Positions 3,445 through 25,919 of a stretch of DNA of 39,334 nt are shown in pieces. Source of the stretch: Sulfurospirillum sp. (GTDB taxonomy: Bacteria > Campylobacterota > Campylobacteria > Campylobacterales > Sulfurospirillaceae); the NCBI GenBank assembly GCA_016735235.1, contig JAERRW010000004.1, positions 1 through 39,334 of the forward strand, read 5' to 3'. Position numbers and translations under genes: made by a program. The first letter of the stretch is position 1; every line of letters begins with the position of its first letter. The notes beneath the pieces were generated by a model. It was given only the letters and a program-made list of their open reading frames with translations, searched no databases and was not told the origin of the DNA.

Positions 3445-5994
3445 ATGGACATAAGAGCAGAATTTTTAAACTATTTTAAACAAAAAGGGCATGCATTAGA
3501 GCCTAGTGTCCCGCTTGTTGTTAATGATTCTACTTTGCTTTTTGTAAATGCTGGAATGGTGCCTTTTAAAAGTGTATTTACAGGGGAAATTCCAAGACCA
3601 AATCCACCAAGAGTTGCTAGTTGTCAAACTTGCATAAGAGCTGGAGGCAAACACAATGACCTAGATAATGTAGGCTATACTGCTCGTCATCATACATTTT
3701 TTGAGATGCTTGGCAATTTCTCTTTTGGTGACTACTTTAAAGAAGATGCAATAGCTCATGCCTGGGAATTTGTAACAGAAGTTTTAAAACTTCCTAAAGA
3801 GAAACTCTGGGTTACAATACACACTAGTGATGATGAGGCAGAAAAACTTTGGCAAAAACATATTCCGTTGAGTAAAATTAAACGCTTTGGAGACGCTGAT
3901 AACTTCTGGCAGATGGGAGATACTGGACCTTGTGGACCTTGTAGCGAGATATTTATAGACCAAGGTAGCGAACATTTTAATAGCGATGAAGATTATTTAG
4001 GTGGCGATGGCGATAGGTTTTTAGAGATATGGAATTTAGTTTTTATGCAGTATGAGAGAGATAAAAATGGAAATTTAGAGCCTCTTCCAAGACCCTCAAT
4101 CGATACGGGCATGGGGCTTGAGAGAGTTATTGCAGTTAAAGAGGGAAAATTAAGTAATTATGATTCCAGTGAGTTTATGCCACTTATTGCAAAAGTTGCA
4201 GAGATTTGTAATAAGAGTTATAAATATGAAACTGGAGCAAGCTATAGAGTTATTGCCGATCATATGCGTTCAACCTCTTTTTTACTAGCACAAGGAGTCA
4301 ATTTTTCAAATGAGGGTCGTGGTTATGTCTTAAGACGGATTACTCGTCGTGCCATTCGTCATGGGTATCTTCTTGGGATTCGTAAACCTTTTATGTATAA
4401 ACTATTAGATGTTATAAACTCTTTATTGGGTAAACAGTATCCATATTTGATAGAGAAAAAAGATCTATTAAAAGAGCAAATTAGGCTTGAAGAAGAGAGA
4501 TTTTTAGTAACTATCTCTTCTGGAATTGAAATATTTGAAAATGAATTGAAAAATACAAAAGATATTTTTAGTGGCAATGTAGCATTTAAACTTTATGATA
4601 CTTGTGGTTTTCCTCTTGATTTAACACAAGACATGTTAAGAGATAAAGGTTTAAAAATAGATATTAGTAAATATAATAAACTCATGGAAGCTCAGCGTAA
4701 CCGTTCAAAGTCTTCTTGGAGAGGTAGCGGAGACAAAGTTATAAGTGGAGATTTCAAAACAATACTAGAGAGAGTTGGGCAAAATGATTTTGTAGGATAT
4801 TCAAGAAATATAAATTCAAAAGCAAAAGTTCTTGCACTTTTAGATGATAATTTTAAAGAGGTTAAAGTTCTTGAAAAAAGTGGTTGGATAATGCTAGATA
4901 AGACGCCATTTTATGCACAAAGTGGTGGACAATGTGGAGACAAGGGAGAGATAGTTAATTTTGGAAAAGTAACTGATACGCAAAAATTTTTTGAATTAAA
5001 TTTTTCAAAAATAGAACTCAAGAGTCTCTTACATGTAGATGAAAAAGTAAATGTAAAAGTAGATATTTCAAGAAATGAGATAGCAAAACATCATTCTGCA
5101 ACTCATTTACTTCATAGTGCATTAAAAACTATTTTGGGCAAACATATCGCACAAGCTGGTAGTTTAGTAGAGAAAAGTAGATTAAGATTTGATTTCTCTC
5201 ATACAAAAGCCATGAGTGCTGAAGAGATAATAAGCGTAGAAGATTTTGTAAATGACATAGTAGCAACAAGCAGAAATAGCGTAACAAAAGTTATGAGTAT
5301 TGATGATGCTAAAAAAAGTGGAGCCATGGCTTTGTTTGGAGAAAAATACGGCGATAAAGTTAGAGTAGTTACTCTTGGAAACAAGAGTAAAGAACTTTGC
5401 GGTGGAACACATGTTGAAAATGTGGGAGAAATTGGAAGTTTCATCATCTCTAAAGAGAGTGGAGTTAGTGCGGGCGTGAGAAGAATAGAGGCTATTTGTG
5501 GAGCTAGCTCTTTGGAGTACACAAAAACACTTAGAGATAATCTAAATCAAATAAAAGAGATAGTAAAACACAAAGATGCAATTATTGGAGTTGAAAAAAT
5601 AAAAAATGAGATTCAAACTCTCAAAAACGAAGTTAAGTATCTTGAAGAAAATATTAACAAACAAGTTAGAAGTGAGACTGTAAATGGTGTAGAACTTGTC
5701 GTAGATGTGTTGAGTGCTGGGGATGTAAAAAAAACGATAGATGATTATAAAAATAAAAAACAAAGTATTGCTATACTTCTTTTGCAAGTAAAAAACAGTA
5801 AAGTATCAATAGTCGCTGGAGTTAAAAATGCACCACTAAAAGCAGATGAATGGATAAAGAAAGTTGCTCCAATAATTGGTGGCAGTGGTGGAGGAAGATC
5901 AGACTTTGCACAAGCTGGTGGAACTAATGTTAGTAGAGTTGATGACGCTAAAAAAGTAGCTTTAAAATTTGCTAAAAATATTTTAGAGAGTTAA
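3445..5994 (+). CDS. alaS: Alanyl-tRNA synthetase
   Basis: An 849-residue class II synthetase that charges tRNA-Ala. The order is catalytic core (1-240; motif 2 region [20 protein letters not shown], motif 3 DTGMGLERV), tRNA-recognition domain (240-450), editing domain with zinc ligands H550 and H554 (HHSATHLLH) and C652 and H656 (ELCGGTH), a coiled coil around 700-730, and the C-terminal glycine-rich C-Ala domain ending near [15 protein letters not shown]. Length is normal for the family. The ATG at 3445 gives the expected [11 protein letters not shown] start. A candidate -10 box lies at 3425-3430. It is followed closely by a bioF-like gene on the same strand. All key motifs are present. Confidence 0.97.
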
Positions 5995-22552: not shown

Positions 22553-23614
22553 ATGAGATACCCTTTAGATAATAAAAAAAAATTCAATAATAATTTACTT
22601 TTTTGGTTGGATAGATTTGTAAAATCAAAATTAACTTCACTTTCAAATAGACATGTAACTAACAATAAAAAGTTATCTTATATAATAGGCATGTTAAATA
22701 GAGGTACAAAAAATATTGATGAGTTAAAACAACTAACTAAAGATGCAAGAAATATAGGGCTTATAGGAATCAATACATATATAAATCCGCTTGTAAAATT
22801 TTATAAATACATAATCCAATTTAACTATAAAAGTATAAAATATATAGACGAAGAGGTTTTAAGTGAATTTTTAGCTTCTCAAACTGGATCACTTAGCGAT
22901 GCTACTAAAAAAAACTATCGCATGTCATTAGTTGCTTTTTTCTCTTTTATAGATAAACAAAATGAAGACAAAAAAGGTAACTCTCATCAGTTTAGAATTG
23001 AACTTAAAAATTGGGGAGGACTAAAAAGTTCTCATGCAACAAAACTACCATCTCATATGAGAGATGAGGAGCTAAAAAGATTTTTAGACGCTATAGAGAC
23101 AACAGAATTTAAAAATTATGCTAGAGCAAAAAATAGACTTCTTATAAAAACTATTCTATATAGTGGTATGAGAGTTAGCGAGGCTTTAGGTCTACATGTA
23201 AAAGATGTAATTCTTGAAGATGATTTTTATGTTTTTGGCATAAAAGGAAAAGGCAATAAGCCAAGAATTGCTATGATAAAAAGTCAATATCTTAAAAAAG
23301 ATTTGCAAGAGTGGCTACATGTTAGAGATAAAAATTCACTTTTTCTTTTTCAAAGTCGCACCGCAAAACCTTTAACACAATCTTATGTGAGTTATATTAT
23401 GGATAAAATTCTTATTAATGCTGGTGTAAGAAAAGAGAAAAATGGGGCACACATGCTTAGACACACTTTTGCAACTAAACTTTATCAAAAAAATAGAGAT
23501 TTGGTTTTAGTGCAAGAAGCATTGGGTCATGCTGACATAAACACTTCAAGAATCTATACACATTTTGACAAAGAGAGATTAAAAATAGCGGCTAATACAA
23601 TGGATGACATGTAG
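22553..23614 (+). CDS. xerH: XerH-type tyrosine recombinase
   Basis: A 353-residue site-specific recombinase. The core-binding domain covers about 1-160 and the catalytic domain 165-353, with R207 (SGMRVSEAL), K233 (KGKGNKP), H300 and R303 (HMLRHTF), H326 (LGHADI) and nucleophile Y335 (SRIYTHF). Campylobacterota use a single XerH acting at difH to resolve chromosome dimers, in place of XerC and XerD. Length and motif spacing match that group closely. I looked for a difH-like palindrome in the flanking gaps and found none. It probably has its own promoter and a leaderless start. Confidence 0.92.
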   Translation: MRYPLDNKKKFNNNLLFWLDRFVKSKLTSLSNRHVTNNKKLSYIIGMLNRGTKNIDELKQLTKDARNIGLIGINTYINPLVKFYKYIIQFNYKSIKYIDEEVLSEFLASQTGSLSDATKKNYRMSLVAFFSFIDKQNEDKKGNSHQFRIELKNWGGLKSSHATKLPSHMRDEELKRFLDAIETTEFKNYARAKNRLLIKTILYSGMRVSEALGLHVKDVILEDDFYVFGIKGKGNKPRIAMIKSQYLKKDLQEWLHVRDKNSLFLFQSRTAKPLTQSYVSYIMDKILINAGVRKEKNGAHMLRHTFATKLYQKNRDLVLVQEALGHADINTSRIYTHFDKERLKIAANTMDDM

Positions 23615-23648
23615 ATATATACCGTCCCATTTTCAAGACTAATCCAAA

Positions 23649-23890
23649 ACTATTTTATATCCACCTCTCTATGTACCTCAAGCAACATATCTTTAGACTC
23701 GTTTCTCTCACCAGATTTGTCATATGTTCGATTGAAGTGGAAATCTTTCTGGATGCTCTATCATATCTAAACTCAAATCTACATCTAAATTTTCCCAATA
23801 TAAATGTCCTTGTACAAAACTTTCAACTTTTGCTAATTCAATTTGTGGGTCAAGACAAAATTTAGCTTCACCTTTTTGACACTGGCAAAT
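23649..23890 (-). pseudogene. Frameshifted, truncated DUF4160-like gene remnant
   Basis: The minus strand reads as protein in two adjoining frames. The first holds CQKGEAKFCLDPQIELAK, which resembles the core of DUF4160 proteins, then DVDLSLDMIEHPERFP. Near 23730 the frame shifts by one base and continues RTYDKSGERNESKDMLLEV to a TAG at 23649-23651. There is no start; an in-frame stop lies at 23891-23893, against the next gene. It fills the gap between xerH and the TIR-like gene. The family call is by pattern only. Confidence 0.45.
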
Positions 23891-23902
23891 TTATATCCTC
23901 AC

Positions 23903-24394
23903 TTATAGTTGTACATAATCCCAACAGTATGTTCTATCGCTTGGTGCTTTACTTTTATTTTTGTTATATTCCGTTGGAAAATTATCCAATGCATGTTTTA
24001 CCTTTTTTGATTCAAACGGAACTGATACGAAATAAGCTTTATTTTTTAAAATAGGTGGTGTATTTGTATCTGCCTGATTCGATTCATTTAAATTAACAGC
24101 AATAATCGGTATATCCATACTAATAGCTATTTCTAATTCCCATTTAACATATGTATATAAATTTTTTGTGCTATCACCAACTAATACAACTACTTGTTTT
24201 GTATTATCCATTCTTTCTCTAAGTTTACTTTTTATTGTTTCTTCTGATGAACCGTCTCTTAAGTTGTTTAAGTCATGAGCATCATGAAAATTAAAATCTA
24301 TTTTATCATTCTCTTTCCAAGCAGTCATTAGTCTATAATATCTCATATCATTATTTGAGTCAAATATAATATATGTTTTATTTTTGTAACTCAT
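23903..24394 (-). CDS. ThsB/DUF1863-like TIR domain protein
   Basis: A 163-residue single-domain protein with the TIR-like (DUF1863/MTH538) layout: strand KTYIIFDSNND near 6-16, FNFHDAHDLNN with the D-rich loop (about 35-44), a lysine-rich helix ETIKSKLRERMDNTKQVVVLVGDST, and YVKWELEIAISMDIPIIAVNL at 82-102. E86 in KWELE sits where Thoeris ThsB proteins carry their catalytic glutamate (from memory of ThsB; not checked by alignment). Such proteins make NAD-derived signals that activate a partner. The ATG at 24394 has AAGGAAG upstream and is preferred over an earlier in-frame ATG. It overlaps the upstream membrane protein gene by 17 bases. Confidence 0.7.
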   Translation of the reverse strand: MSYKNKTYIIFDSNNDMRYYRLMTAWKENDKIDFNFHDAHDLNNLRDGSSEETIKSKLRERMDNTKQVVVLVGDSTKNLYTYVKWELEIAISMDIPIIAVNLNESNQADTNTPPILKNKAYFVSVPFESKKVKHALDNFPTEYNKNKSKAPSDRTYCWDYVQL

Positions 24395-25043
24395 TGTCTT
24401 CCTTTTGTGTAAAATTTGATGGAATTGAATTTGATACAATTATTGTAAAAAACAAAAATGTATTAATCAACTCACTTAAAAATACAACTCTTACTTCTTG
24501 TGTTAATGGTTGAAAACCACCAAAAGTCAAAGTAAAAGCTGTAGATATGCTTAAATAGATAGCATTTATGCTATCTAAAACTGAAATATCTAATAATTTA
24601 CTATCAATTAGTATCATGTCATTATAGTGAAATTTATATAAATAAGCATAACTAAATAAATAAAAAGCAATAGCCATAAGATAATTTAGAAAATTCTTTT
24701 TTAATGCTTCTCTATCATTTCTTTGCTTATATTTACTTCCCCAAGTATGATAATAAAAATATACAAATAAATTACTATAAATTAAATAGTAAATTATTAG
24801 CTTTGATGTTAATGAATTATTTTCACTTAACCAGAAAAATACTAATAATCCCCATTTAAAAATTTGATAAATATCAATAGCTATTGTACTACAACTTCTA
24901 ATAATATCGACTGATACTTTTTCATCTTTTTTTAATGATAATATTGCATAAAATCTACCTATAAATTTAAATAGTTCTACCAAATTGGTATAATATAAAA
25001 AATTTATAAGTGAATTAAATAGTGGGTAAATAAATCCATTCAA
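24378..25043 (-). CDS. Membrane protein with channel-like pore segment, partner of the TIR-like protein
   Basis: A 221-residue membrane protein with four or five hydrophobic segments (about 56-73, 82-98, 118-137, 183-205). Near the C-terminus, residues 158-180 read SINAIYLSISTAFTLTFGGFQPL, followed by a long hydrophobic helix. That order (amphipathic helix, T-rich loop with GG, outer helix) resembles a K+-channel pore domain, with TFGGF in place of the usual TVGYG filter. The only start in frame is a TTG at 25043 with AGGA seven bases upstream. The following TIR-like gene overlaps it, so the two form one operon. A membrane effector role is inference; no named family is recognised. Confidence 0.6.
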   Translation of the reverse strand: MNGFIYPLFNSLINFLYYTNLVELFKFIGRFYAILSLKKDEKVSVDIIRSCSTIAIDIYQIFKWGLLVFFWLSENNSLTSKLIIYYLIYSNLFVYFYYHTWGSKYKQRNDREALKKNFLNYLMAIAFYLFSYAYLYKFHYNDMILIDSKLLDISVLDSINAIYLSISTAFTLTFGGFQPLTQEVRVVFLSELINTFLFFTIIVSNSIPSNFTQKEDNELQK

Positions 25044-25139: not shown

Positions 25140-25919
25140 GTGTTATTAGGTGTAAATATTGACCACATAGCAGTTTTAAGAGAAGCTAGAAAAATAAATG
25201 ACCCAGACCCGCTTGATGCAATAAGTTTAGTTAAAAGAGCAGGTGCGGACCAAATAACGGTGCATTTAAGAGAAGATAGAAGACACATAAATGATGTAGA
25301 TGTTATTCGTATTATTGAAAACTCACATTTGCCTGTAAATTTAGAGAGTGCAATTGACCCACATGTAATTGACACTGTAATAGAAATGAATCCTAGTCGT
25401 GTTACACTTGTTCCCGAAAAGAGAGAAGAAGTTACAACCGAAGGTGGACTCGATTTGATAAAAAATTTCCAAACTATAGAAAAAATAAATTCTAGATTAA
25501 AAAAAGCAAATATAGAATCTTCCGTTTTTATTGATCCTGATATATTGCAAATCAAAATGGCAAAAAGTCTTAATTCACAATGGATAGAACTTCATACTGG
25601 ACTCTATGCAAATATATATGCCATGCTAAATACAAATCTTAAAAATACATATCACTCTATCAAAGAGTTGGATTTACCTAGAAATACTTTGCAGATAAAA
25701 TTACAACAAGCTACAAAACAACTTCAAACCTCAGCAATTTTAGCAAACAAGTTAGGCTTAAAAGTAGCAGCTGGTCATGGGTTAAATTACCAAAATGTTA
25801 AAACAATAGCAAATATACAAGAAATAATTGAACTAAATATTGGTCAAAGCATCATTGCTAGAAGTATTTTTACTGGTTTTGAGAATGCAGTTAAAGACAT
25901 GTTAGAACTAATAAAATGA
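25140..25919 (+). CDS. pdxJ: Pyridoxine 5'-phosphate synthase
   Basis: A 259-residue TIM-barrel enzyme that condenses 3-amino-1-hydroxyacetone phosphate with deoxyxylulose phosphate to make pyridoxine phosphate. Conserved blocks are LGVNIDHIAVLREAR (3-17), ITVHLREDRRHI (about 39-50), PSRVTLVPEKREEVTTEGGLD, and the late VAAGHGLNYQNV. The start is a GTG at 25140 with AGGAG five bases upstream; the overlapping ATG at 25136 is in another frame. It ends in an ATGA overlap with pdxA. Confidence 0.95.
   Translation: MLLGVNIDHIAVLREARKINDPDPLDAISLVKRAGADQITVHLREDRRHINDVDVIRIIENSHLPVNLESAIDPHVIDTVIEMNPSRVTLVPEKREEVTTEGGLDLIKNFQTIEKINSRLKKANIESSVFIDPDILQIKMAKSLNSQWIELHTGLYANIYAMLNTNLKNTYHSIKELDLPRNTLQIKLQQATKQLQTSAILANKLGLKVAAGHGLNYQNVKTIANIQEIIELNIGQSIIARSIFTGFENAVKDMLELIK

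Follow-up and report, generated by a model that had tools for sequence, protein, structure and literature searches.

Two intact genes on the minus strand make up the locus, which lies in a stretch of 39,334 nucleotides from Sulfurospirillum sp. that was analysed as a whole and is here called the window. The first is a gene for a membrane protein (24378..25043, 221 aa, with a TTG start at 25043 and its stop at 24378) and the second is a ThsB-type TIR gene (23903..24394, 163 aa, ATG at 24394 and stop at 23903), the two sharing 17 bp (24378..24394). The TTG is preceded by a Shine-Dalgarno-like AGGA and agrees with the starts of homologues (MNNGFIYP, MKNGFIYP), and the ATG of the TIR gene is preceded by a ribosome-binding-like AAGGA, which together with the 17-bp overlap is, judged from these signals, the arrangement of a translationally coupled two-gene unit. 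On one side of the pair is a XerH-type recombinase gene (22553-23614) and on the other is pdxJ (25140-25919), whilst downstream of the pair is a minus strand frame with several breaks (about 23617-23900), the decayed remnant of a DUF2442 gene (E 1.1e-4) that is outside the mechanism of the pair. The overlap of 163- and 221-residue genes, their position between xerH and pdxJ and the decayed neighbour were all as the original prediction had described them.

The GC content of the pair is 22-27%, against 31% for the window. Neither gene was found upstream of pdxJ in five congeneric genomes, where unrelated genes are present, thus the pair at the pdxJ site looks like a strain-level insertion. Relatives of the pair have integrases alongside or are found on a viral contig, and as homologous pairs occur at 14 other loci in at least four phyla the association of the two genes is more than chance.

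It is clear from its sequence that the TIR protein is a ThsB, of the Tyr/Glu active-site class of type II (TM-macro, His-ADPR) Thoeris. It matches PF08937 with 71.6 bits over a cut-off of 21.2 (E 7.9e-20) and the PADLOC ThsB model (E 4.2e-64), and has a solved homologue in 8v6t (E 5.5e-36), which bears out the ThsB/DUF1863-like identity and the TIR fold on which the original prediction depended. The active site has Tyr8 paired with Glu86, the latter within a VKWE motif, and Glu86, which had been put forward as standing at the catalytic position, is invariant along with Tyr8 in all 15 TIRs linked to the family of the window's membrane protein (MEM), the window included. In the class of EcThsB2 (subfamily 9) an active-site tyrosine Y8 is found opposite the catalytic glutamate E89 (Shi et al., PMC11204291), and Y8 and E86 of the window TIR occupy these places. 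The Tyr-containing class of ThsB has been reported solely from TM-macro Thoeris and is connected with histidine-ADPR signalling, with in vitro NADase activity absent from EcThsB2, a member of the same active-site class (PMC11204291).

Searches of Pfam, NCBIfam, PADLOC and PHROGs with the membrane protein gave no match above cut-off, those with its single sequence gave none in plasmids, phages and viral contigs, and within the class the single-sequence search found true K+ channels only, the MEM family being detectable only via the neighbours of ThsB genes. Pfam matches to Phage_sheath_1C (E 0.006) and DUF92/DUF1345, found for few members and below cut-off, were rejected as chance. As assembled here the family has 14 intact members and one that is frameshifted (L074), window included, from Campylobacterota, Pseudomonadota, Bacteroidota and Bacillota as well as a viral contig, with hosts that include Shewanella, Poseidonibacter, Halarcobacter, Ruegeria, Flavobacterium, Tenacibaculum, Labilibaculum, Sporomusa and Heyndrickxia. 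An alignment of 14 members, with 26-62% identity to the window protein, has as its invariant residues V22, K26, D57, K63, Y86, N91, Y95-F96-Y97, H99, W101, Y134, S165, F198, T200 and P208.

TIR relatives were drawn from 84,980 species genomes, viral contigs and plasmids, with neighbours classified by profiles. Because the scans of these collections relied on short patterns of peptide sequence and on the 80 best loci, the proportions of each class are not population frequencies: amongst the 110 non-redundant TIRs collected a macro-TM ThsA adjoins 72, a DUF4231 membrane protein 16 and MEM 15 (the window included), with 7 having none of these alongside. At all 15 of the TIR loci with MEM its gene immediately precedes that of ThsB in the same orientation, and the 14 intact MEM genes overlap the ThsB gene or are within about 20 bp of it. 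The five TIRs closest to the window TIR (64-74% identity) all have MEM as their partner, and partner type clusters on the TIR tree, MEM requiring 3 changes where the shuffles average 14.3 and none of the 500 is as low, with the exception of L026, which has modest support for its position next to the macro group. Compared pair by pair, TIR and MEM identities are also correlated (r 0.61, Mantel p 2e-4). MEM and ThsB are co-inherited in a fixed gene order, and the type of effector has been swapped within one ThsB clade, which with an effector of channel fold would amount to at least two exchanges. The published view that ThsB with the active-site tyrosine is confined to systems with TM-macro ThsA is therefore qualified, with 31 of the 110 TIRs collected from this clade having another membrane partner.

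DUF4231 is a third recurrent partner of the Tyr-active-site ThsB (L057, L061, L070, L075, L076, L082, L085 and others). These partners were matched by no PADLOC model, and we take the DUF4231 membrane proteins paired with TIRs to be SLATT-like. The genome of the window also carries, on contig G000:C77 (L187), a second, different TIR (443-874, PF08937 E 3e-14) with a DUF4231-like membrane protein of 292 aa starting 2 bp after it (877-1755), a second TIR/membrane-partner pair. Two of the pairs nearest to that of the window have a further TIR gene beside them, a CAP12/Pycsar-type TIR gene in Shewanella (L043 2446-3267) and a TIR_2 gene in Poseidonibacter (L044 4501-5274), which suggests that these pairs are in defence islands. 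ThsB-type TIR genes are also found within type I restriction-modification operons (L114 973-1452, L008 about 3608-4228), positioned between the specificity and restriction subunits, and in L008 the TIR frame apparently includes the N-terminus of a macro-TM protein, through fusion or recombination.

The AlphaFold2 monomer of the membrane protein (pLDDT 82.6, pTM 0.79) has N-terminal amphipathic helices (residues 5-36), TM1 (45-73) and TM2 (78-101), followed by an outer helix (111-139), a pore helix (158-170) and an inner helix (182-206), with a filter region at about residues 171-178. Residues 158-187, encoded on the minus strand at 24483..24572, take in the K+-channel-like pore helix, the filter TLTFGGF and the start of the inner helix. 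By Foldseek this model matches tetrameric cation channels in the overwhelming majority of cases (NaK, KirBac, KvAP, hERG, MloK1), with viral K+ channels also matched by fold at a probability of up to 1.00; the E-values are modest (0.05-0.7), so the match rests on its consistency and on the TM-scores of the pore. The divergent member L101, which is without the filter glycines, gives a similar result, its model (pLDDT 84.5) matching the Kir chimera 2qks with an rmsd of 2.6 and a probability of 1.00.

Profile comparison leads to the same place. Nearly all of the 34 matches of the MEM profile in the PDB are K+ channel pores, albeit weak (E 0.13-2.5), and an alignment by hhalign of the MEM pore with 15 genuine channel pores taken from related genomes gave P 90.2% (E 1.5e-6), pore loop upon pore loop. 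Generic hydrophobicity was rejected as an explanation of this homology, with two control membrane families giving P 0.1-0.25% (DUF4231 P 0.09%, macro-TM P 0.25%). Taken with the model, this supports a C-terminal half that has the outer, pore and inner helices of a K+ channel, and the pore-like nature first proposed for this part of the protein was borne out. The proposal was wrong in one detail, as FTLTFGGFQPLT had been placed before a long outer helix, whereas it stands ahead of the inner (S6-like) helix and comes after the outer one (111-139). The profile searches that it recommended were positive for PF08937, far over the cut-off, but not for Ion_trans_2 (PF07885), which did not match the window protein itself; it is the family most often touched by MEM, in 7 of 14 members, whose weak matches (E 0.0011 at best) stay under the curated cut-off.

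What the pore would conduct is a further matter. The TVGYGD of KcsA aligns without gaps to TLTFGG of the window, but the filter is degenerate, Arcobacteraceae having TLTYSG at this place and other members TANYEY or the like. The T-V-G-Y/F-G selectivity filter is absent from MEM, and the filter glycines are missing in most members from Bacteroidota and Bacillota. K+ selectivity was rejected at the level of sequence for want of a conserved GYG filter, and we infer from the degenerate filter that the pore would not select for K+. The loss of filter glycines in half of the family is also what would be expected if the fold were ancestral and the filter defunct, with the membrane protein making lesions or clusters like macro-TM ThsA or the TM effectors of CBASS and having no axial channel. 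Sister systems of the same TIR class do employ a membrane-perturbing ThsA (PMC11204291). However, the pore helix and inner helix are retained in all MEM members, the filter keeps its length without gaps in all but one, and even the divergent member has fold matches that remain tetrameric channels, so that lesions or clusters are considered an unlikely explanation.

To avoid ascertainment via the TIR, a membrane-first search was made with the MEM alignment alone in about 1,100 genomes, comprising 397 genomes of the class and those of the families of L050 (351), L044 (104), L043 (107) and L046 (170), where for the two largest sets the scoring covered only some of the first-look candidates. Of 8 full-length MEM members found in this way, 6 are beside ThsB and 2 are not. 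The two homologues without a TIR (L178 and L179, near Ruegeria) are distant (E 7e-38 and 3e-35), yet retain K26, D57, K63, YFYYHxW, S165 and P208. Each is the last gene of an operon with a 911/938-aa uncharacterised protein and a flavoprotein-like enzyme that has a weak likeness to LmuA and Pyr_redox_2, an operon that occurs in two genomes of the L046 family (L184 6460-12579; L185 6591-13278) and is a candidate for a new defence operon. It is apparent that MEM is not exclusive to TIRs at long range, whilst the close members are all TIR-linked. The co-occurrence of the two genes that was to be checked across genomes is thus upheld for all 15 members found from TIR loci and for 6 of the 8 membrane-first members, but fails for L178 and L179.

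With these homologues in a flavoprotein operon that has no TIR, the channel module looks swappable. A weaker match in a relative of Shewanella (L177/L182) proved to be a genuine channel of the GYGD kind with a SIR2-like gene alongside; in L182 (3967-5953, minus strand) that gene is paired with one for a K+ channel of 314 aa whose TIGYGD filter is intact, an NAD-linked domain once more adjoining a channel. The module seems common to operons linked to NAD or flavin, and this speaks for an effector role. Such a role bears on the rather improbable alternative that it is the TIR that kills, by depletion of NAD+, with the membrane protein as its sensor or anchor and triggering occurring at the membrane. 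The absence of a ligand domain from the membrane protein and the direct overlap of the genes would fit with this, and some bacterial TIRs do have the role of NADase effectors (PMC12847820). The window TIR, though, is in the signalling class of ThsB, whose other partners are effectors, and the pairing of distant MEM homologues with an unrelated enzyme fits an effector rather than a sensor specific to a TIR. That the pair is a regulatory or stress system, such as TIR-controlled ion homeostasis, can be entertained insofar as the defence role is read solely from family and context, but is highly improbable given the patchy distribution scattered laterally over phyla, the integrases and TIR or CAP12-TIR genes nearby, the member on a viral contig and the absence of the pair from congeners.

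The reading that we consider probable is that the two genes form a Thoeris variant acting by abortive infection, in which a nucleotide made by the TIR would open a compact pore and the infected cell would stop. The soluble TIR protein would sense a cue of infection and its Tyr8/Glu86 site, going by its class, may turn NAD+ into an ADP-ribose-type signal, a configuration shared with ThsB proteins to which the synthesis of histidine-ADPR is attributed. Either this signal or the TIR in its activated form would then contact the cytosolic face of the membrane protein, which would take the place of the macro-domain ThsA. This face is predicted to hold most of the invariant residues (K26, D57, K63, Y95-F96-Y97, H99, W101). 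The conserved residues are mostly off the pore loop, at those halves of TM1 and TM2 that are cytosolic in the predicted topology, a placement that charge counts favour just mildly, and whilst no ligand-binding domain is recognisable in the membrane protein it is plausible from the model that these halves form the site of contact for a ligand or the TIR. The membrane protein is predicted to be a tetrameric channel with the outer helix, pore loop and inner helix of the K+-channel type, its relaxed filter probably being non-selective, and its opening would let ions through, collapse the membrane potential and bring growth arrest before phage release.

The defence role, the signal, the gating and the ion flux are what we infer for this pair, and a Thoeris-like defence pair with a pore-like partner, as originally predicted, is supported as an interpretation by the identity of ThsB, the fixed linkage and the homology of the pore domain. 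More tentatively, the pair may be a distinct type of Thoeris in which an ADP-ribose signal made by the TIR directly gates a compact pore derived from a K+ channel, with one or more further defence-like operons making use of the same module. Parallels are found in plant TIR signalling to cation channels and in the ADPR-gated channels of animals. If the gating reading is true there would be a bacterial immune pathway from TIR to ion channel, an effector of channel fold would add ion flux to the outputs of bacterial TIR signalling, and a small (221 aa) pore gated by a ligand or TIR would be amenable to direct study.

In the literature covered here, the effectors described for Thoeris comprise NADases of the SIR2-SLOG type, proteins of the macro-TM type and caspase-like proteases, and the expectation that the partner would be unlike the first two was correct, as PADLOC recognised 0 of 14 MEM proteins, against 9 of 9 macro partners, and the window protein has no macro or SIR2 match. 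A true ThsA elsewhere was also considered and rejected, a search of the window's own genome with the macro-TM profile, run with no positive control, giving no match. The literature searches made here found no channel-type Thoeris effector. PMC12390725 mentions a 'Thoeris type III' but gives no composition for it, and the pair of the window, or the DUF4231 pairing, may be this type.

Type II Thoeris is the most similar of the known systems, sharing with the window pair its ThsB clade, the Tyr/Glu active site, a membrane effector and an arrangement of two genes that overlap or abut. It differs in that the window effector is a four-TM pore-domain protein with no macro domain, unrelated to ThsA in sequence (hhalign P 0.25%). 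As the defining TM-macro ThsA is missing next to the window thsB, the pair is not filed under type II, despite working that would be type II-like. With type I (SIR2-SLOG ThsA) and type IV (caspase-like) the window pair would, by analogy, share a nucleotide signal made by the TIR for the neighbouring effector, but its partner is a membrane protein, with no SIR2 match and not an NADase in the first comparison, and not a protease in the second. The DUF4231 proteins also serve this ThsB clade as membrane partners, yet at about 290 aa they are unrelated to MEM in sequence (hhalign P 0.09%). Finally, the window protein shares its outer, pore and inner helices with Ion_trans_2 and the pores of KcsA, KirBac and KvAP, its AIYLSxxxAxTLTFGGFxPLT aligning without gaps on the TVGYGD filter region of the KcsA pore loop, whilst it differs from these pores in the replacement of TVGYG, in its extra N-terminal helices and two TMs, and in having no known gating domain.
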